From positions 1-13,345 of the forward strand of contig JAKEGR010000087.1 in the NCBI GenBank assembly GCA_022615465.1: a stretch of 13,345 bases of DNA, written 5' to 3'. The notes beneath the pieces are model-generated. The model made no database searches and was not told where the DNA came from. It saw nothing but the letters and a program-made list of their open reading frames with translations. Shown piece by piece: positions 613-10,373 of this stretch. The DNA comes from Planctomycetota bacterium (GTDB lineage Bacteria > Planctomycetota > Planctomycetia > Pirellulales > Lacipirellulaceae). A program made the position numbers and the translations under genes. Within the stretch, counting starts at the first letter, position 1. Each line of letters begins with the position of its first letter.

Positions 613-1062
613 TCACTCCTGAATTTGAGGCGATTGGGGTTGAACAATAAACGTGTGCGAACGCCGAACTGAGAGTTCACTTCCAAGGGGATACTCGGCC
701 ACGACGCGGACCTGCCACGGTTTGCCGTCCGAATCGCGCGACGCCTCCATCGTGACTTGCCCGTCGCCGCGGCCGACGATCTGCTCTGCCGGAATCATCC
801 AGGTCTCACCCCGGTAGTCGGTTTCGCGGAACAGGCGATACGCGGCGCGATCCGCGCCCGCTTCGAGCAGCAGTTCCGTCTGACGCAGATCGCGCTGCGT
901 GCGTAATTGTCTTCTTACACGCAACGTGCCTTGCAACATGTTGCCGAGCAGCGTCATCACGACGAGCATGCAAACAAGGGCGGCAACGAGCACCGTGCCG
1001 CGCCGCTGATGCGGATTGCGGAATCGCAAACGCCACCAACAATCGTGACGGTGAGCTGTCAT
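613..1062 (-). CDS. PilX/GspK-like minor pilin-type membrane protein
   Basis: A 149-residue protein with a basic N-terminus (residues 1-21) ending in RRG, then a hydrophobic helix at about 22-44 (GTVLVAALVCMLVVMTLLG), then a soluble domain. The layout matches prepilins cut after G22, but mature position +5 is Ala27 instead of Glu. Glu5 is also missing in the tip pseudopilin GspK, and the protein is in the PilX/GspK position of the operon, although it is much shorter than GspK (about 300 residues). Its start overlaps the stop of the GspJ-like gene by ATGA (1059-1062), so translational coupling is likely. The C-terminal part has no motif I recognise. Likely a minor pseudopilin at the tip of the fibre, or simply a membrane-anchored assembly protein. 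Confidence 0.78.
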   Translation of the reverse strand: MTAHRHDCWWRLRFRNPHQRRGTVLVAALVCMLVVMTLLGNMLQGTLRVRRQLRTQRDLRQTELLLEAGADRAAYRLFRETDYRGETWMIPAEQIVGRGDGQVTMEASRDSDGKPWQVRVVAEYPLGSELSVRRSHTFIVQPQSPQIQE

Positions 1063-1670
1063 TCCGGAACCTCCTCGCCTCCCGCCAACTGCGAAAAACG
1101 CCAGTCGCGACCGGGGACCGCTTCCGCTTGAAAGCTCACCGGCATCGCGTGCGGGTTCCAGGGCGGTGAACGGTCGGGGTCTGGCTCATTTTGCGTAGTC
1201 TTCGGAGCAAAATGTGCCTGCCCCCCTTCCCGGGCGCTTGTGGAACTGGCTGTGGTAATGGATAGGGTGAGGCGGCGCGGTGATTCCTCCTCGCGAATCG
1301 CCAGTTCGATTGCAGGTGGAAACAGGAATTCTTCATGCGATACGCCCGCGGCGTTCCGTGACAAGACTCGCTGCACACTCCCTTCCTGGCGGCGATATTC
1401 CACGGATTGGTCGTCGGGAAGTTGAAGTCGCAGGAAGACGCCTTCGCCAAGCTCGGCATCGCCCGCAACAAGACCGATCGCTTGATGCACGTCGCGGCGG
1501 AACTGGTCGGAAAGCCGCCAGGCACTCCGTTCCACATCGAAGAAGGAGCGTGTCTTGGATTGCGCGTGCATTGCTCGATGAACGAGCACCCCGCTCATCG
1601 ACAGGATGACGCTACATGCCGACATGACCACCAGAAGCTCAACAAGGGATACAGCACGACGAATTCTCAT
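1059..1670 (-). CDS. GspJ/PilW-like prepilin with in-frame repeat insertion
   Basis: A 203-residue protein with a very short prepilin leader, MRIRRA, cut before V7. The mature protein starts VSLVELLVV with Glu at +5 (E11), followed by a hydrophobic helix to about residue 30. The body (FFDVERSAWRLSDQFRRDV near 43-61) resembles GspJ/PilW-type minor pseudopilins, which follow GspI in type II secretion operons. Start and stop both overlap neighbours by ATGA (1667-1670 and 1059-1062). Residues about 148-167 (reading QAHFAPKTTQNEPDPD) are encoded by a palindromic repeat at 1176-1225 and so look like an inserted linker rather than part of the fold. Ala stands at the cleavage site in place of Gly. 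Assignment to GspJ rests on the prepilin signature plus gene order, not on strong sequence motifs. Confidence 0.85.
   Translation of the reverse strand: MRIRRAVSLVELLVVMSACSVILSMSGVLVHRAMHAQSKTRSFFDVERSAWRLSDQFRRDVHQAIGLVAGDAELGEGVFLRLQLPDDQSVEYRRQEGSVQRVLSRNAAGVSHEEFLFPPAIELAIREEESPRRLTLSITTASSTSAREGGQAHFAPKTTQNEPDPDRSPPWNPHAMPVSFQAEAVPGRDWRFSQLAGGEEVPE
1176..1225. repeat. Palindromic repeat inside the GspJ-like gene
   Basis: Arms at 1176-1194 (GGGGTCTGGCTCATTTTGC) and 1207-1225 (GCAAAATGTGCCTGCCCCC) pair at 16 of 19 positions around a 12-base loop. The mismatches are scattered and the centre is perfect. This GC-flanked hairpin with an AAAATG core looks like a dispersed MITE-like repeat I associate with planctomycete genomes; that association is from memory. 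It lies wholly within a coding sequence and is read through without a stop. Confidence 0.82.
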
Positions 1671-2134
1671 GGTTCTTCGTTCCTTGGCGTCTGGCCGCTG
1701 GGCTGCTGGGAGGCGGCAGGAATCCAGGCCGCCAAGGCCACCGGCGCCGCGCGTTGCCGCGGCTCATCCCACGTAAGTTCAAGCGTAAGCCGCGCGCCGA
1801 TGTCGGCAGGCTCCAACCGGCTGCTGAGTTCCACGCCAGGCAGCCTGCTCGCCGTGAAAGGCGAAGCAGCGAGCCGCTGAAGCGCCTCCGCCAGTTTGTC
1901 TTCCGGCAGCGCGGTGAGGCGTTCCAGTTGGTTCGATAGTTCATCGAGCGCCAGTCGGTAGTGGCGCTGGGCGGTAAGCAGCCGACCATGCCGAACCACC
2001 AATGGCAGGGATAGGGTCAGCGTGGTGGTCAATAACGAGAGTGCGACAAGCACCTCGATGGCACTCGTTCCCAGGCCGGTACGGCGTTTCCTCGCCAACC
2101 ATGCGTCTCGCAGCAGCTTTGTCTTACTCGTCAT
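1667..2134 (-). CDS. GspI/PilV-like prepilin
   Basis: A 155-residue protein with a basic leader (residues 1-22, ending RKRRTGLG) and a class III prepilin-type cleavage site, G22/T23, with Glu at +5 (TSAIE, E27). A hydrophobic helix runs from about 28 to 46 (LVALSLLTTTLTLSLPLVV). The rest is a short helical and beta domain with heptad-like Leu-rich sequence near 57-85. It lies between the platform gene (6-base gap) and the GspJ-like gene (4-base overlap), the classical position of GspI. Likely a minor pseudopilin that helps to start fibre assembly in the inner membrane. The Phe normally found at +1 is Thr here, so automated prepilin finders could miss it. Confidence 0.82.
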   Translation of the reverse strand: MTSKTKLLRDAWLARKRRTGLGTSAIEVLVALSLLTTTLTLSLPLVVRHGRLLTAQRHYRLALDELSNQLERLTALPEDKLAEALQRLAASPFTASRLPGVELSSRLEPADIGARLTLELTWDEPRQRAAPVALAAWIPAASQQPSGQTPRNEEP

Positions 2135-2140
2135 GGCAGT

Positions 2141-3229
2141 TCACAGCAGTCCGGTAATAAATCGCGTAAGCGGTAGGAATACGCTGAGGGCCTGGAACAG
2201 AACGAAGATTCCGAGGAGACCAACAATCAGTGGCAAGACAAGCTCCGCCATTCGATTCAGGCGTCGCATCGTCCGACGCCGCTTGCTAAAGGCCAATTGC
2301 TTTAATACCCAAGGTCGATTGCCGACGCGCTCCGAGGTCGCCAGCGCGTTGACTTCGGCGGGAGAAAGCAGATCGACGGCGGCCAGGCTGTGCCATGCAT
2401 CGGCCCCTTGTTCGATTTCGTTCCGGACGAAAAGGAGCTTATACCTGGCGATCGGGTCAAAGTGATAACGAGCCAAGGTCGAAAGCACGCCCGGAAGGGG
2501 CCGGCCCGTCTGCGCCGCGATGCCGAGCTTCTGCAATACCTCGGCGGATCGCAATTCCCGCGCGGAGCGGGACAGCCGACCCAGGATCGAATAGCGGATG
2601 AACCGCCCCAGACGCGCGGAGAACATCGACCACAGAAGCACCCCTCCGGCCAGCGCGCCCAGCCACCAGTAGTTCACGAAGAAGCGAGCGAATCCGATGG
2701 ACCACAGCAGCGCCAGGGGCGGTTCCATGTCGAAATCACTCAATATCTTTTCGAATTCAGGAACTATCTTGATTTGCAGGAATGCTATAACGAGGAACGC
2801 GAGCAGAAGGAAGGTGCAGACATAGACGATCGCCCTGCGGATCGGAGAGGGGCTATCCGTCAGCGCTGATTTCGACTCGTCGAGCGTCGCGCGAAGTGTT
2901 GCCGAAAGCGTTCCTGATTGAGCGCCAAACCGTATCGCCAGGATGTCTTCATCGCGCAACAGGCCGGGGACCGCCTCGATGGCATCCGGCAGGGGAGTGC
3001 CTGTTTTCAACTGGTCGGCCAGCCGTAGCAGGCGGTGTTTCTGAGCACGACGTTCATCGGCGGCCCAGCTTTCCAGGAGCGGACTCAACGGCAGGTTTTC
3101 CTCCGCCGCCACCGCGATCAGCCGCAACAGCGCCCGGCGCTGCGCCAAATTGGCATACCGCGACCACAGCGAGGGAAACGGTATGCTCGGTTGTGCGAGT
3201 CGTCGGAATGTTGGGAACCATGTATCCAT
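2141..3229 (-). CDS. Type II secretion system F family protein (third of three)
   Basis: A 362-residue inner-membrane platform protein of the GspF/PilC family. It has two T2SSF domains: the first at about 28-155, with LPLSPLL and the RFGAQSGTLSATL signature (100-112), the second at about 225-352. Predicted membrane helices lie near 132-155 (ending in the typical IVPEFEKIL), 185-204 and 328-352 (FVLFQALSVFLPL). It lacks the extra cytoplasmic N-terminal domain found in full-length GspF of about 400 residues. Members of the family couple the assembly ATPase to pseudopilin extraction from the membrane. It is followed at once by the prepilin genes, so this is the platform protein most closely tied to them. 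A repeat cluster separates it from the preceding gspF-like gene, so it may have partly independent expression. Confidence 0.93.
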   Translation of the reverse strand: MDTWFPTFRRLAQPSIPFPSLWSRYANLAQRRALLRLIAVAAEENLPLSPLLESWAADERRAQKHRLLRLADQLKTGTPLPDAIEAVPGLLRDEDILAIRFGAQSGTLSATLRATLDESKSALTDSPSPIRRAIVYVCTFLLLAFLVIAFLQIKIVPEFEKILSDFDMEPPLALLWSIGFARFFVNYWWLGALAGGVLLWSMFSARLGRFIRYSILGRLSRSARELRSAEVLQKLGIAAQTGRPLPGVLSTLARYHFDPIARYKLLFVRNEIEQGADAWHSLAAVDLLSPAEVNALATSERVGNRPWVLKQLAFSKRRRTMRRLNRMAELVLPLIVGLLGIFVLFQALSVFLPLTRFITGLL

Positions 3230-3245
3230 CGAATGCGTAATTCAC

Positions 3246-3331
3246 GGAACGCCAGGGACGGCGTTCCCACCATTTTGGTTGCGGCCGCAGGCCGCGTTAG
3301 GGTGAGGGCCTCTGCGTGAGTCTCCCTCACC
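3246..3331. repeat. Cluster of three different palindromes
   Basis: Three perfect hairpins are packed end to end. GGAACGCC at 3246-3253 pairs with GGCGTTCC at 3260-3267. GCGGCC at 3281-3286 pairs with GGCCGC at 3290-3295. GGTGAGGG at 3301-3308 pairs with CCCTCACC at 3324-3331. None has a T-run on either strand, so they are not classic terminators. A related GC-rich motif (CCGCAGGCCGCGTTGG) recurs near 5825-5840. They look like fragments of dispersed intergenic repeats accumulated at one site. Confidence 0.8.
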
Positions 3332-3335
3332 CCAG

Positions 3336-3440
3336 CCCTCTCCCAGTGGGAGAGGGAGCAACCATTCCAACCCTCTCCCAGTGGGAGAGGGAGCAACCAT
3401 TCCGGTCCTCTCCCAGTGGAAGGGAGCAACCATCGTTCTG
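3336..3440. repeat. 35-bp tandem palindromic repeat, three copies
   Basis: The unit starts with the hairpin CCCTCTCCC-AGT-GGGAGAGGG and continues GAGCAACCATTCC. Copies begin at 3336, 3371 and 3406, an exact 35-base period. The third copy is degenerate (TCCTCTCCC, then GGAAGGG). A fourth, isolated copy of the hairpin lies at 10502-10522. Open reading frames across it translate into low-complexity peptides such as PLPLGEG and are spurious. The array ends a few bases after the stop codon of the upstream gspF-like gene (stop at 3446-3448). Confidence 0.92.
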
Positions 3441-3445
3441 CGTTC

Positions 3446-4687
3446 CTACATACTCAGGCCCTCAATAAGTTTGACTAACGGCACAAACAGCCCGATGACG
3501 GTCCCTCCCACAAGGATGCCAACGACGCAAATGGTGACGGGTTCGATGATTCCGTGTGTCCACGAAAAACGGCGGCGGGTTCGTTCCGCATGGCATTGGC
3601 TGACCTCTCTCAGCAGGTGAATTCGTGACGCGGTTGCCATGTCCGAACGCAAAGCGTGAAGGACTGTCGCGGTCAGCGGCCGCGATGGAACGTGCTGTCC
3701 GCGGCCGCCCACTGACTCCATCTCGCTCGCCAGATTCCAGGCAGCCCGCCGCAGCCGGGAATTCCGCGTGGAGAAACCGGCGATCCTCAGGGCCTTTGGA
3801 GTCTCAAGCCCCGCTTCCAGCAGATCTGCCGAGAATCGGGCAAACCGGGAAGCGGCCGCCCGGCGTCCGAAGGGCGTGGCGAACCGGTCTCCCAGCCAGC
3901 CGCTCACCCTGCGAGGCAGCCAGCGCCTGACGTTCACCAGCATGAATCCGGCGACCACGACCAGGAGTGCAACAATAACAATCCGGCCGCTGGTGATCCA
4001 ATCCGACAGTGTGAGCAGCAGCAGCGTGAGAGGAGGCAACTCGAGACTGAATTCTTCAAATATATCGCGGAAGGTGGGGACGACGAGAAAACTGAGCACA
4101 GTCATTACCGCGGCGGCGATCCCGGCGACAAACAGGGGGTAGGCGAATGTGAGCCACCGTTGCCGGCGAAGTTCTTCGGTGCGCTGCGATTCCTCCAGAA
4201 ACTCGTGCAACACGCGACCCGCATCCTGGGACGACGCGGCAGCACTGAGCAGCGGTATCCAATAATCGGGGAGCGTTCCCAGGGCGGTCTCTGCTTCCGC
4301 CAAGTTGCCCCGCTCGAGTACCTGGTACACCGCCGTCAATTGGCGGCGAGATCGCCCGGCTGGCAACTCTTCCGCATAAGCACGCAGTGCCGGAACGATC
4401 GCCTTGCCTTGCTCCAACACCCTGGCCAAATGGGACCGCAGCACCGCTTGTTCGGCACTTGCATCCCACGGCCTGGCATCCTGAGAAAGCGTCTGGTGTG
4501 CTGTTTCCTGTGCAGCCGATGCCCCGGCAGAACTGGATCTCGATTCCGTTGCGGCATAGCCGATCGACTGGACCGTCCATCCGCCGGTTTCTAATTGCGA
4601 GATGGCCTGCTGAACCGTGTCGGCCCGCAGTTCGCCTTCGACCAATTGCCCCTCGGCATTCAGAGCCTGATACCGAAAGTGTGCCAT
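3446..4687 (-). CDS. gspF: Type II secretion system F family protein (second of three)
   Basis: A 413-residue protein and the only one of the three platform paralogues with the canonical GspF N-terminal domain (MAHFRYQALNAEGQLVEGEL, residues 1-45). It is followed by a Ser/Ala/Gln-rich linker (about 45-75) and two T2SSF domains (about 80-205 and 280-405). Membrane helices are predicted at about 180-203 (PLFVAGIAAAVMTVLSFLVVP), 234-252 and 380-405 (VVGILVGGTVIGLFVPLVKLIE). The length fits typical GspF/PilC (about 400). The domain-1 signature seen as G-x-x-SG-x-L in other members is weakened to AASSQDAGRVL near 150-160. It begins 46 bases after the first gspF-like gene and would be cotranscribed. 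Platform role inferred from family. Confidence 0.95.
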   Translation of the reverse strand: MAHFRYQALNAEGQLVEGELRADTVQQAISQLETGGWTVQSIGYAATESRSSSAGASAAQETAHQTLSQDARPWDASAEQAVLRSHLARVLEQGKAIVPALRAYAEELPAGRSRRQLTAVYQVLERGNLAEAETALGTLPDYWIPLLSAAASSQDAGRVLHEFLEESQRTEELRRQRWLTFAYPLFVAGIAAAVMTVLSFLVVPTFRDIFEEFSLELPPLTLLLLTLSDWITSGRIVIVALLVVVAGFMLVNVRRWLPRRVSGWLGDRFATPFGRRAAASRFARFSADLLEAGLETPKALRIAGFSTRNSRLRRAAWNLASEMESVGGRGQHVPSRPLTATVLHALRSDMATASRIHLLREVSQCHAERTRRRFSWTHGIIEPVTICVVGILVGGTVIGLFVPLVKLIEGLSM

Positions 4688-4733
4688 ATGTTGAAATTGG
4701 GGATGGGAGCCTATGCGATCATGTCAAGGAATT

Positions 4734-5771
4734 TCAAGATGCCAGGGAACGGAGCATTTGGACTACCGGGATGAACAACATCAGGCCGTAGAGCAAGGTG
4801 ACGCCACCGCCGATAAGGACGCATGCGACGATCGGCGCCACGATCCGCAGTCGCTCGGCGCGACGTTCCGCGGAATGCCGGTAAACCCTCGCGGCCATGC
4901 GTAGGGCCGGAACTCGTCCGATGGTTGCCTCGGAATGCCATAGCGACCACCGGAGAAACGGCGGAAACCGCCTGGCCGCGGCACTGTCGTCCGGCGGCAT
5001 TTGCCCTTGTTCCAGACCGGCGACCAGCGCGCAAGCCCCTTGATTCAATCCGGCATCGCCACTCACCCCCGCTGCCAGATCCAGACTCTCCTCCAGCGAT
5101 ACGCCGCGCTCCAACAGGGTGGCCAGCGACTCGGAAAAACTTGCATACCGCTGCTGGGATATCGCTCGCGATATGCCGGGCACCCACGCCAAAACCCTGG
5201 CGACGCGACCGTTCGACATTGCCCCCCGCGATCTGGTTCGAAACCACCACGCAGCTAGCAGCAGCAAGGCCAGCGGCGGAAGGACAATCCAGTAGGGCAT
5301 GGTGTTCCGCACGAATTGAAGAGCGCGCAGGCCCGATCCGGGGGGAATCCGCAAGTCTCTGTAGAATTCCTCCAAGGTGGGCACGAAGTACAGACAAAAA
5401 CCAATCAAACCGACGTAGGCGACAGCGCACACCAGGATTGGGTAAAATAAGGCCGACCGCACGGCATACCGAGAGCTGTCGACCGTTTCCGCCAGGAGAT
5501 TGGACTCGTCCCATGCGGTCCCGACATTGCCGCTGTGGATCCCAAGCTGCACCAGACAGCGGTACGCATCAGGCACGTCGTGTTCGTCGTCTTCCAGCGA
5601 TTCGGAGAGCGATTCACCGCGACTGACACGGCGTGCCACCGTCGCGTTGATCTTCTCCAAACTTGCCGCCGCATCCATTCCCAAACCAGCATCGACCGGG
5701 ACGCCGGCCTCGACCAGTGCCATAAACTGGTCGTTCAACGCCATCAAATCGTCCAGCGTGGCGGTTTTCAT
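4734..5771 (-). CDS. Type II secretion system F family protein (first of three)
   Basis: A 345-residue polytopic protein of the GspF/PilC family and the first gene of the pseudopilin operon. The first T2SSF domain spans about 12-130 (EAGVPVDAGL; RRVSRGESLSESL; LGIHSGNVGTAW), ending in a helix at about 107-130 with the typical YFVPTLEEFYRDL exit. A second helix lies near 158-177. A second T2SSF domain spans about 205-338 (LATLLERGVSLEESL), with its last helix near 309-336 (YGLMLFIPVVQMLRSLAS). It lacks the GspF N-terminal domain. The start at 5771 is the first ATG that gives a family-like N-terminus. The upstream 217 bases hold hairpins and no gene. How three platform proteins share one machine is unknown; a hetero-oligomeric platform or several pseudopilus systems are both possible. 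Confidence 0.93.
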   Translation of the reverse strand: MKTATLDDLMALNDQFMALVEAGVPVDAGLGMDAAASLEKINATVARRVSRGESLSESLEDDEHDVPDAYRCLVQLGIHSGNVGTAWDESNLLAETVDSSRYAVRSALFYPILVCAVAYVGLIGFCLYFVPTLEEFYRDLRIPPGSGLRALQFVRNTMPYWIVLPPLALLLLAAWWFRTRSRGAMSNGRVARVLAWVPGISRAISQQRYASFSESLATLLERGVSLEESLDLAAGVSGDAGLNQGACALVAGLEQGQMPPDDSAAARRFPPFLRWSLWHSEATIGRVPALRMAARVYRHSAERRAERLRIVAPIVACVLIGGGVTLLYGLMLFIPVVQMLRSLAS

Positions 5772-9184: not shown

Positions 9185-9618
9185 TGACAGGCGATTGTGC
9201 CGCGAGTAAGGATTTGCCCGAGTGCATGCGGCGGTGGGGAAGCTCCCCGCGATCCGCCGGTTGCGTCTCTCTGCAAGTTTAGGTTGACAAGGCGTCGAAT
9301 GCGCAGGCATATGCCGTGTGGGTCGCCGTAACGATTTTGCGGACGGCAGCAGGCGAGCGTCTCCCTCCGAGGGCCATGGTTCATCACCGCGCCGGTACAA
9401 CCGGATATTTTTCCATTAGTCTCATGCCGCGGTTTGACTTCCTCCAGAACTGACATAGTGTTTTGGTGGAGGCATGACGCAGATGAAGCGTTGGCCCCCT
9501 GGTTCGCCGCTCACGGGAGTACGAACCGCGTAAGCTTCTCTTCTCCTAGACCGATTCAGGTCACTCACTGAGCGCGTTGGGCGAGGAGTGGTTTTCGCAA
9601 CAGGGCCTGCCGCGTCAT
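9185..9618. other. Gene-free region between the divergent loci
   Basis: A 434-base stretch with no credible gene. A strong hairpin, GGCGG (9230-9234) with CCGCC (9254-9258) enclosing GGGGA/TCCCC (9236-9240 and 9244-9248), lies near the left end. A weak sigma-70-like pair, TTGACT (9434-9439) and TAGTGT (9456-9461) with a 16-base spacer, is the best promoter candidate for the Flp transcript that I can see. A 19-codon ORF (ATG at 9474, stop ending 9533) follows a purine-rich GGTGGAGG. It overlaps a hairpin, GGTTCG (9501-9506) with CGAACC (9522-9527). Promoters for both the minus-strand toroid gene and the plus-strand pilin leader should be in this interval. Confidence 0.4.
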
Positions 9619-9730
9619 CATCCTCGATAAAGGCAAACCAGCCGTAAGGCTGGGACGCAAAGCTTAGGACCTGTCGGCGACCATGCGACCGCATGTTAGC
9701 GCGACAGGCGGCCGAGCTGCCGAAAGGATG
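9619..9730 (+). promoter_or_regulatory. Cyclic di-GMP-I (GEMM-I) riboswitch
   Basis: All parts of the GEMM-I consensus can be traced. P1 pairs CATCCT (9619-9624) with AGGATG (9725-9730). The conserved GGCAAACC follows at 9632-9639. P2 pairs CCAGCC (9638-9643) with GGCTGG (9648-9653), capped by the GNRA tetraloop GTAA. The signature GGGACGCAAAGC spans 9652-9663. P3 pairs CCTGTCG (9670-9676) with CGACAGG (9702-9708), extended by the hairpin CATGC-GACC-GCATG (9682-9695). The 3' conserved block GGCGGCCGAGCTGCCG (9707-9722) matches the consensus that carries the conserved C contacting the ligand. The class binds cyclic di-GMP and controls motility, pilus and matrix genes. This one is on the same strand as the Flp pilin gene, 238 bases before its start, so pilin mRNA is the obvious target. 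Whether it turns expression on or off cannot be read from the aptamer. Confidence 0.95.
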
Positions 9731-9957
9731 TTGGCTGTCGTCTGGAAGTCGACAAAGATTGGATTCTCCGAGCCAACCGAGGTTGATTTCGCAAGTTGTG
9801 TAGTAACTGGCGAGGCCTTTTGACGGCGATTGCAGGCTTACCGAGACTCCTTGGGGAGGATTGGGTGCCGTCGGAGGTCGGAAATCGGGAGCAATTATAT
9901 TGTGTAACGGCTCCCGTTAACAAAGTAGGGTAGGCCCGCAATGGCCAACCCGAGAAC
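9731..9957 (+). promoter_or_regulatory. Structured 5' leader between riboswitch and pilin gene
   Basis: Four hairpins follow the aptamer. TTGGCT (9731-9736) pairs with AGCCAA (9771-9776), directly stacked on P1. GACGGC (9822-9827) pairs with GCCGTC (9867-9872), enclosing CTCC-TTGG-GGAG (9847-9858). CGGGAGC (9886-9892) pairs with GCTCCCG (9910-9916). GGGT.GGCC (9928-9936) pairs with GGCC.ACCC (9943-9951), ending 7 bases before the ribosome binding site. A TTTT at 9818-9821 is the only U-run, with no strong hairpin just before it, so transcription termination is not evident and control at translation initiation is a reasonable alternative. The stretch CTCCG (9766-9770) could pair with CGGAG of the ribosome binding site. 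Confidence 0.6.
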
Positions 9958-9958
9958 C

Positions 9959-9963
9959 GGAGG
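9959..9963 (+). promoter_or_regulatory. Ribosome binding site of the Flp pilin gene
   Basis: GGAGG with a 5-base spacer to the ATG at 9969. It is the clearest Shine-Dalgarno sequence on the plus strand here. That is consistent with a highly expressed pilin and with the possibility that the leader controls access to it. Confidence 0.85.
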
Positions 9964-9968
9964 ATGCT

Positions 9969-10145
9969 ATGAAGAGTCTTGCTACGAAGGTACAACGTTT
10001 CCTCGTCTCGGAAGACGGTCCAACCGCAGTCGAATACGCCGTGATGCTGGCGTTGATTGTGATCGTCTGCTTGACCGCCATTCGTTCGATTGGAACGAAT
10101 GCGAACACGACGTTCACTAGTGTCGCGACTGAGCTCGCGTCGTAA
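9969..10145 (+). CDS. flp: Flp family type IVb major pilin
   Basis: A 58-residue prepilin. The leader MKSLATKVQRFLVSEDG ends at G17. The mature 41-residue protein starts PTAVEYAVMLALIVIV, with Glu at +5 (E22) and the adjoining Tyr (Y23) that marks the Flp subfamily, then a hydrophobic helix to about residue 38 and a short polar tail (SIGTNANTTFTSVATELAS). Length and layout are typical of Flp pilins of Tad systems, which polymerise into thin adhesive pili after cleavage by an A24 peptidase. It lies downstream of the c-di-GMP riboswitch and upstream of the peptidase, cpaB and cpaC genes, so it begins the Tad locus. Proline at +1 is unusual. A strong terminator directly after it should make pilin mRNA more abundant than mRNA for the assembly genes. 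Confidence 0.97.
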   Translation: MKSLATKVQRFLVSEDGPTAVEYAVMLALIVIVCLTAIRSIGTNANTTFTSVATELAS

Positions 10146-10203
10146 TTCAATCGACCAAACGACTGGTGGTGGCCTGGCCCTACTGGCTACTATTGAAACC
10201 CAC

Positions 10204-10240
10204 ACCCCTCGACAGCCGACGCGCTGCCGGGGGGTTTTTT
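10204..10240 (+). terminator. Rho-independent terminator after flp
   Basis: ACCCCTCGACAGC (10204-10216) pairs with GCTGCCGGGGGGT (10223-10235), with one wobble and one A-C mismatch in 13 positions and a 6-base loop, followed by a run of T (10235-10240). It lies 58 bases after the pilin stop, between the pilin and the rest of the Tad locus. It probably works by partial readthrough or sets a separate pilin transcript. Confidence 0.92.
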
Positions 10241-10258
10241 GTTGGAGGGGGGGAGTGC

Positions 10259-10307
10259 GGAGTGCGGAAGGGGGAAGGGCCAAATTTCTTTTCCCCTTCC
10301 ACACTCC
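10259..10307. repeat. Imperfect palindrome, GGAGTGCGGAAGGGG type
   Basis: Arms at 10259-10273 and 10293-10307 (CCCCTTCCACACTCC) pair at 14 of 15 positions, with a 19-base AT-rich loop (AAATTTCTTTT). Extra partial copies of GGAGTGC and CTTCCGCC flank it on both sides. It lies directly after the flp terminator and looks like a dispersed repeat. Peptides predicted across it (for example PLPHSA) are spurious. Confidence 0.8.
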
Positions 10308-10373
10308 GCCTTCCGCCTTATTTCTGAGCTACGCTTTCCCTGGGGAAGCAGTCTGCACTTCGCGGAGCACGCC

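Follow-up and report, generated by a model that had tools for sequence, protein, structure and literature searches.

What is a cyclic di-GMP aptamer doing at the head of a planctomycete Tad/Flp pilus locus, and how might it act on the pilin gene that follows it? We addressed this question in a 13,345-nucleotide stretch of DNA (the window) from a Lacipirellulaceae genome whose assembly amounts to 2.29 Mb at 66.2% completeness. The first-pass annotation of this DNA had described a complete GEMM-I aptamer, and covariance models agree. In a cmscan of the whole window, RF03167 (c-di-GMP-I-GGC) matched 9623-9725 on the plus strand with 63.1 bits (E 3.1e-13, gathering cut-off 59), and RF01051 (c-di-GMP-I), the model that the annotation had proposed as a check, matched 9622-9724 with 62.8 bits, well above its gathering cut-off of 35. 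The two labels are tied for this aptamer; according to PMC9943018, models of these two types tend to detect identical RNA sequences. The core (9622-9725) can be read as lengthened by extra P1 pairs, CATCC with GGATG, to 9619-9730 on the plus strand, and the P2 hairpin at 9638-9653 carries a GTAA loop, which is a GNRA tetraloop. The class I c-di-GMP aptamer in the window, on the plus strand, is complete.

Whether c-di-GMP itself is the ligand can be judged from a few positions. In our numbering after the Vc2 sequence, the equivalent of G20 is G 9632, that of A47 is A 9659 (CGCAAAGC, within GCAAAGC), and that of C92 is one of the two bases of the CC at 9720-9721. In Vc2 itself, G20, A47 and C92 contact the ligand, according to PMC4744006. 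At the A47 equivalent, RF03167 shows G in its consensus line and the window has A, and the window accordingly appears to lack the G that would mark the RF03167 variant if "GGC" means what we read it to mean. That the best Rfam model belongs to a variant family with this consensus G would fit recognition of some other cyclic dinucleotide, such as 3',3'-cGAMP, by the aptamer. Variants that bind cGAMP are marked by a change at G20, and the window has G at that equivalent as well as A at the A47 equivalent; RF01051 scores equally high, and GGDEF domains were found in every family genome searched (at least one match in 43 of 43 genomes, and six in the source genome). These observations make a different dinucleotide very improbable and c-di-GMP the strongly favored predicted ligand.

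The gene next to the aptamer on the same strand is flp, as the first-pass annotation had also claimed. It encodes a Flp/Fap pilin of 58 amino acids (9969-10145, plus strand; PF04964, 38.5 bits against a cut-off of 32.2) and starts 243 nt after the end of the aptamer core. The plus strand of this interval contains no gene-like open reading frame, just mechanical ones of 45-46 amino acids, in agreement with the claim that no gene intervenes. Genes for Peptidase_A24 (PF01478) and RcpC/CpaB (PF16976) follow on the same strand, and this succession of Flp pilin, prepilin peptidase and RcpC/CpaB is that of a Tad/Flp pilus locus. Upstream of the flp start codon lies the Shine-Dalgarno sequence CCGGAGGA (9957-9964, plus strand), in which GGAG is near-invariant ahead of the ATG across the family. 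Downstream of flp, folding of 10150-10250 yields a terminator-like hairpin with a T-run (10205-10240, plus strand), absent from the listing of our terminator scan, which suggests that the switch acts on flp rather than on the entire Tad locus. A long near-perfect inverted repeat, mobile or REP-like in appearance, occupies 10240-10329 right after flp. Rfam matches to miRNA and Pxr families at 10196-10329 were rejected as chance, as they are below gathering and all fall on one long inverted repeat. Elsewhere in the window, three GspF/PilC-like genes stand in tandem on the minus strand (2141-3229, 3446-4687 and 4734-5771, within 613-5771), divergent from the Tad locus and adjoining pseudopilin-like open reading frames whose profile matches are weak at best.

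The pairing of aptamer and flp, for which the annotation had suggested a survey of related genomes, recurs across the order. Of 43 genomes of the family Lacipirellulaceae, 32 contain RF03167 matches, 50 in all; 30 of these matches, in 30 genomes, lie 235-282 nt upstream of a Flp domain encoded in the same orientation, and the Flp pilins at which all 30 leaders end resemble one another at the N-terminus. For 42 of the 72 Flp matches in the family there is no such aptamer within 1500 nt. In a sample of the order Pirellulales (97 genomes), RF01051 gave 76 matches in 60 genomes, at least 57 of which (at least 53 genomes from at least 15 families) lie 124-372 nt upstream of a Flp domain on the same strand. 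When the best 80 of 553 flp loci from a Flp similarity search, a set that overlaps the family set in that several loci come from the same genomes, were scanned with all Rfam models at gathering, 43 had a c-di-GMP-I-type match. All 43 are upstream of flp and on its strand, with their ends no more than about 310 nt away in 42 cases and about 910 nt away in L088, and the 465,742 bases of these 80 loci hold no such match on the opposite strand or downstream. Blastopirellula marina DSM 3645 (Pirellulaceae; L143) likewise has the aptamer upstream of flp. This aptamer very probably controls flp. The pairing, together with a similarly folded leader, probably ties surface attachment to c-di-GMP; that it does so without a protein effector, as first proposed, is something we infer, and protein effectors may act additionally. 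Across a sample of the phylum, RF03167 was found in 135 of 392 genomes. Many genomes of one family in that sample (f47) have up to 11 c-di-GMP-I-GGC matches each, some close together on one contig; 11 is the number of candidates scored, and the true number may be higher.

The 30 family leaders can be aligned over their full length, and conservation begins well upstream of the aptamer. A promoter-like pair, TTTGAC at 9433-9438 and CATAGT at 9454-9459 (plus strand), is separated by 15 nt; TTTGAC is present in all 30 loci and TTTGAC-N15-CATAG in 26, and in the remaining four the second element reads CATAA or CCTAG, again 15 nt away. A sigma-70 scan did not list this pair because its spacing is below the 16-18 nt of the scan rule. 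If the pair is used, the flp transcript would start near 9466 and its leader would be about 500 nt long. Between this putative start and the aptamer, about 55 nt upstream of the helix described below as P0a, lies a pyrimidine tract, CTTCTCTTCTCC (9535-9546, plus strand), and similar tracts are visible by eye in many of the 30 family loci. On the opposite strand of the leader, a promoter-like TTGTTA-N18-TATAAT at 9923-9894 may be due to chance; two sites of this type were found in the region against 0.6 expected.

Structure also extends beyond the aptamer. A long-range closing helix, P0a, pairs 9603-9610 with 9832-9839 (both plus strand); in the 30 sequences 97.5% of its alignment cells are paired, three of its eight pairs show changes on both sides, and its mean RNAalifold probability is 1.0. 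Taken jointly with the adjoining helix formed by P0b and the anti-P1 strands, P0a beat all 500 shuffles in both cells paired and covariation score, with 85.5% of cells paired against 29-45% in versions slid out of register. Nearer the gene, the P6 hairpin (CGGGAGC 9886-9892 with GCTCCCG 9910-9916, plus strand) is paired in 97.6% of cells and has changes on both sides in four of seven pairs; none of 500 shuffles reached its covariation score, and 447 of 500 reached its number of further pair types. A further hairpin, P7 (9928-9951, plus strand), appears directly upstream of the ribosome-binding site when 9925-9968 is folded, and relatives have similar hairpins by eye. P1 itself is paired in 82.9% of cells in the family sequences, with covariation no higher than in shuffles. 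RNAalifold with RIBOSUM scoring, applied to the 30 sequences, picks P0a, P0b, an anti-P1 helix, P2, P3 and P6 with mean probabilities of 0.93-1.0. Both the long-range helix that encloses the aptamer and a hairpin ahead of the ribosome-binding site are supported by covariation. The range first annotated, 9619-9968, covers the aptamer and the leader that follows it and misses the 5' arm of P0a, the 9612-9618 portion of the anti-P1 strand and the promoter-like pair. Conservation and covariation of the leader continue past the aptamer, and the leader probably contains a structured element without a match in Rfam release 15 in the window; 9726-9990, searched alone, matched no Rfam family at E values up to 5. 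We consider it somewhat better than an even proposition that a single RNA device of about 350-500 nt, comprising the aptamer, an exchange of the P1 5' strand, the closing helix and this structured element beyond the aptamer, has stood over flp since an early Pirellulales ancestor.

The proposed exchange involves two alternative partners for the 5' strand of P1. Duplex prediction, alignment and RNAalifold place the 5' strand of an anti-P1 helix at 9612-9626 (P0b at 9612-9614, AP1 at 9617-9620 and 9622-9626) and its 3' strand at 9778-9792 (CGAGG 9778-9782, TGAT 9784-9787, CGC 9790-9792), both on the plus strand. The anti-P1 5' strand overlaps that of P1 (9619-9623 and 9625-9626), and the two helices are mutually exclusive, since each draws on bases within 9619-9626. 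In most riboswitches it is the 3' strand of P1 that is exchanged, unlike the 5' strand proposed here. The anti-P1 duplex of the window has a predicted energy of -18.6 kcal/mol. In the 30 family sequences, just 78.6% of the P0b and anti-P1 cells are paired, with changes on both sides in six of 14 pairs. The RNAalifold consensus gives the P0b part a mean probability of 0.99 and the AP1 part 0.93 in a partly shifted register, its anti-P1 helix having three pairs in common with ours and the next two displaced by one.

Comparison with a second group of flp loci provides further evidence. This group comprises 22 loci that match the aptamer pattern and have a second type of leader, unlike that of the family; L114 and L128 were excluded because their pattern matches are not aptamers, L114 having no Rfam match. 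Seven loci with an Rfam match and no pattern match (L082, L083, L099, L106, L109, L111 and L130) stand outside the covariation tests, and L087, with the same combination of matches, has a family-type leader. The 5' arm of anti-P1 contains GCGT in 27 of 30 family loci and in none of the 22 others, while GCCTC occurs in 16 of the 22 and in no family locus; the 3' arm has changed to match in most loci, resembling ACGC in the family and, in most of the other group, GAGGC. Within aligned blocks, which were chosen after the alignment had been seen, each locus's own strands pair at a mean of -15.4 kcal/mol in the family and -16.8 kcal/mol in the others, against -8.4 kcal/mol with shuffled 3' blocks. 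Crossing the 5' strands of the others with family 3' strands gives -10.0 kcal/mol, and the reverse cross gives -13.4 kcal/mol, a smaller loss. When partners were permuted over all 52 loci, none of 5000 permutations reached the observed mean, a figure inflated by relatedness; permutation within groups gave a weak signal (524 of 5000 reached the mean in the family and 164 of 5000 in the others). The test was confined to the aligned blocks because over the whole downstream region it separated nothing, own partners not being favored over swapped ones. In an unbiased scan of the 100 nt downstream the signal was modest: 15 of the 52 flp leaders beat all 12 shuffles, against three of 19 aptamers without flp (19 of the 20 in the family, L065 being omitted). 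A good anti-P1 is missing from the aligned block in three of the 22 others (L113, L094 and L144), and the helix is weak in family loci L005 and L015. Support for anti-P1 is good though mixed.

These mixed statistics leave room for a reading in which P0a and P0b/anti-P1 form a fixed scaffold or stability element, and control would pass through P1 and an unrecognized downstream element, or through RNA decay. Natural variants bear on this point. Two family leaders with a decayed aptamer core (L041 and L043) retain anti-P1 by eye, a pattern that a scaffold would accommodate and that is awkward for an exchange if anti-P1 alone switches flp off. Folding of the leader, considered below, likewise gives no computed link to the ribosome-binding site. 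Against a scaffold, shared bases prevent anti-P1 and P1 from both forming fully, and the CATCCTCG strand is absent from 19 of the 20 family aptamers that lack flp. The exception, L065, has a flp-type leader: aptamer, anti-P1 and P0a lie at 1-900 on its minus strand, followed near a contig end by an open reading frame that is not flp and that we take to be hemA-like, an arrangement due either to rearrangement or to an assembly artefact. On this balance a fixed scaffold seems unlikely, and we regard the P1/anti-P1 exchange as the probable switch. Other family leaders vary in further ways. Two, L046 and L049, from two genomes, lack the cassette between the P0a arms and keep, by eye, the promoter-like pair and the downstream hairpins; such loss of the cassette does not equal loss of c-di-GMP synthesis domains, because all 43 family genomes have GGDEF matches. 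By eye, L047 has a degenerate leader, while L040 and L044 contain aptamer-like sequence that the family RF03167 search did not report, and a pattern search of the 480 nt next to each of the flp paralogues L042, L045, L048 and L050 showed no aptamer motif.

In the exchange that we favor, an flp transcript that would start about 500 nt upstream of the gene carries the class I aptamer, and P0a would close the whole domain. The 5' strand of P1 could pair either with its own 3' strand or with the conserved downstream segment; by analogy with the behavior of class I aptamers, binding of c-di-GMP would stabilize P1 and disrupt anti-P1. When each form in turn was imposed on the 30 loci in folding, the mean difference between P1 and anti-P1 was -0.5 kcal/mol (sd 5.1), a near-zero value which indicates that the RNA is poised on average, as expected of a switch driven by its ligand, and that ligand could tip the balance; for the window itself the model favors P1 by 8.1 kcal/mol. 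Modelled access to the Shine-Dalgarno sequence is similar in the two forms, at 0.42 with anti-P1 and 0.37 with P1, so that the modelling shows no path by which the exchange would reach the ribosome-binding site. Masking of the Shine-Dalgarno sequence itself by the 5' strand of P1 (CATCCTC with GAGGATG) would fit the window by eye and is doubtful given the nearly equal access in the two forms.

The stretch that follows anti-P1 (9793-9822, plus strand) offers another route. It is T-rich in many relatives: stretches with at least five T in eight occur within 30 nt after anti-P1 in 34 of 52 loci, 22 of the 30 family loci among them, against 18% of random stretches from the same leaders; in the window the maximum is four in eight. 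It does not amount to a standard terminator because it is not immediately 3' of the stem, and our scan found no intrinsic terminator of standard form on the plus strand between aptamer and flp. Its position suggests attenuation or pausing in the ligand-free form, with c-di-GMP as inducer: anti-P1 followed by the T-rich stretch would be the OFF form, and high c-di-GMP would lead to more Flp pilin synthesis and so favor attachment. The same aptamer and exchange could also work in the opposite sense, with c-di-GMP lowering Flp pilin. The anatomy leaves the direction free, the slightly lower Shine-Dalgarno access of the P1 form points that way, and cassette loss in L046 and L049 would release flp, as it equally would under the ON direction. 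Set against such an OFF switch are the T-rich stretch, which follows the ligand-free anti-P1 form, and the class I switch Vc1, which is reported to regulate an attachment gene positively (PMC4744006). We therefore consider an OFF switch doubtful and lean towards the ON direction, in which c-di-GMP raises flp. Taken as a whole, a P1/anti-P1 exchange through which c-di-GMP switches flp on is a likely explanation of this leader.

Aptamers of the family that do not precede flp have settings of their own. Eight of them (L056, L057, L058, L063, L064, L067, L068 and L069) form a second set whose P1 strand differs; a conserved, presumably RecJ-like gene lies about 0.8-2.7 kb downstream of them, and they may serve a small gene or act as RNAs of their own. 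In three more (L059, L061 and L066), the aptamer ends 28-29 nt before a large open reading frame that we take to encode a surface-protein-like product with an LExRxMLS motif, and P1 could there mask the ribosome-binding site.

The aptamer class found here is already known, and it is the expression platform that is unusually conserved. Bordeleau and colleagues reportedly described, in 2015, a c-di-GMP riboswitch upstream of pilus genes in C. difficile, which we take to be of class II; it resembles the window in serving a pilus gene and differs in aptamer class, pilus type and phylum. Another parallel is Vc1, upstream of gbpA in Vibrio cholerae (PMC4744006), which shares with the window its aptamer architecture and its ligand contacts; each aptamer precedes a gene for surface attachment, in the 5' UTR for Vc1 and in a putative 5' UTR for the window. 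The window differs from Vc1 in its gene (Flp pilin), in its phylum (Planctomycetota), in its conserved closing helix and anti-P1, and in leader length, the 5' UTR of Vc1 measuring 225 nt in the same source against the roughly 500 nt that we infer here. Bc1 of Bacillus thuringiensis is likewise a class I aptamer with a long expression platform, up to 220 bp from its gene; PMC11218506 gives it two typical rho-independent terminators, whereas none of that form lies between the window aptamer and flp. Among the literature matches listed, in a search that left the original GEMM papers and most subscription papers outside its scope, none placed a c-di-GMP riboswitch ahead of a planctomycete flp gene.

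If the proposed exchange is true, a large group of planctomycetes would control pilin synthesis through direct sensing of c-di-GMP by RNA. The conserved leader supplies many natural variants, including genomes without the aptamer, for dissecting a long expression platform, and the arrangement would provide a testable model for how planctomycetes switch between free and attached life.
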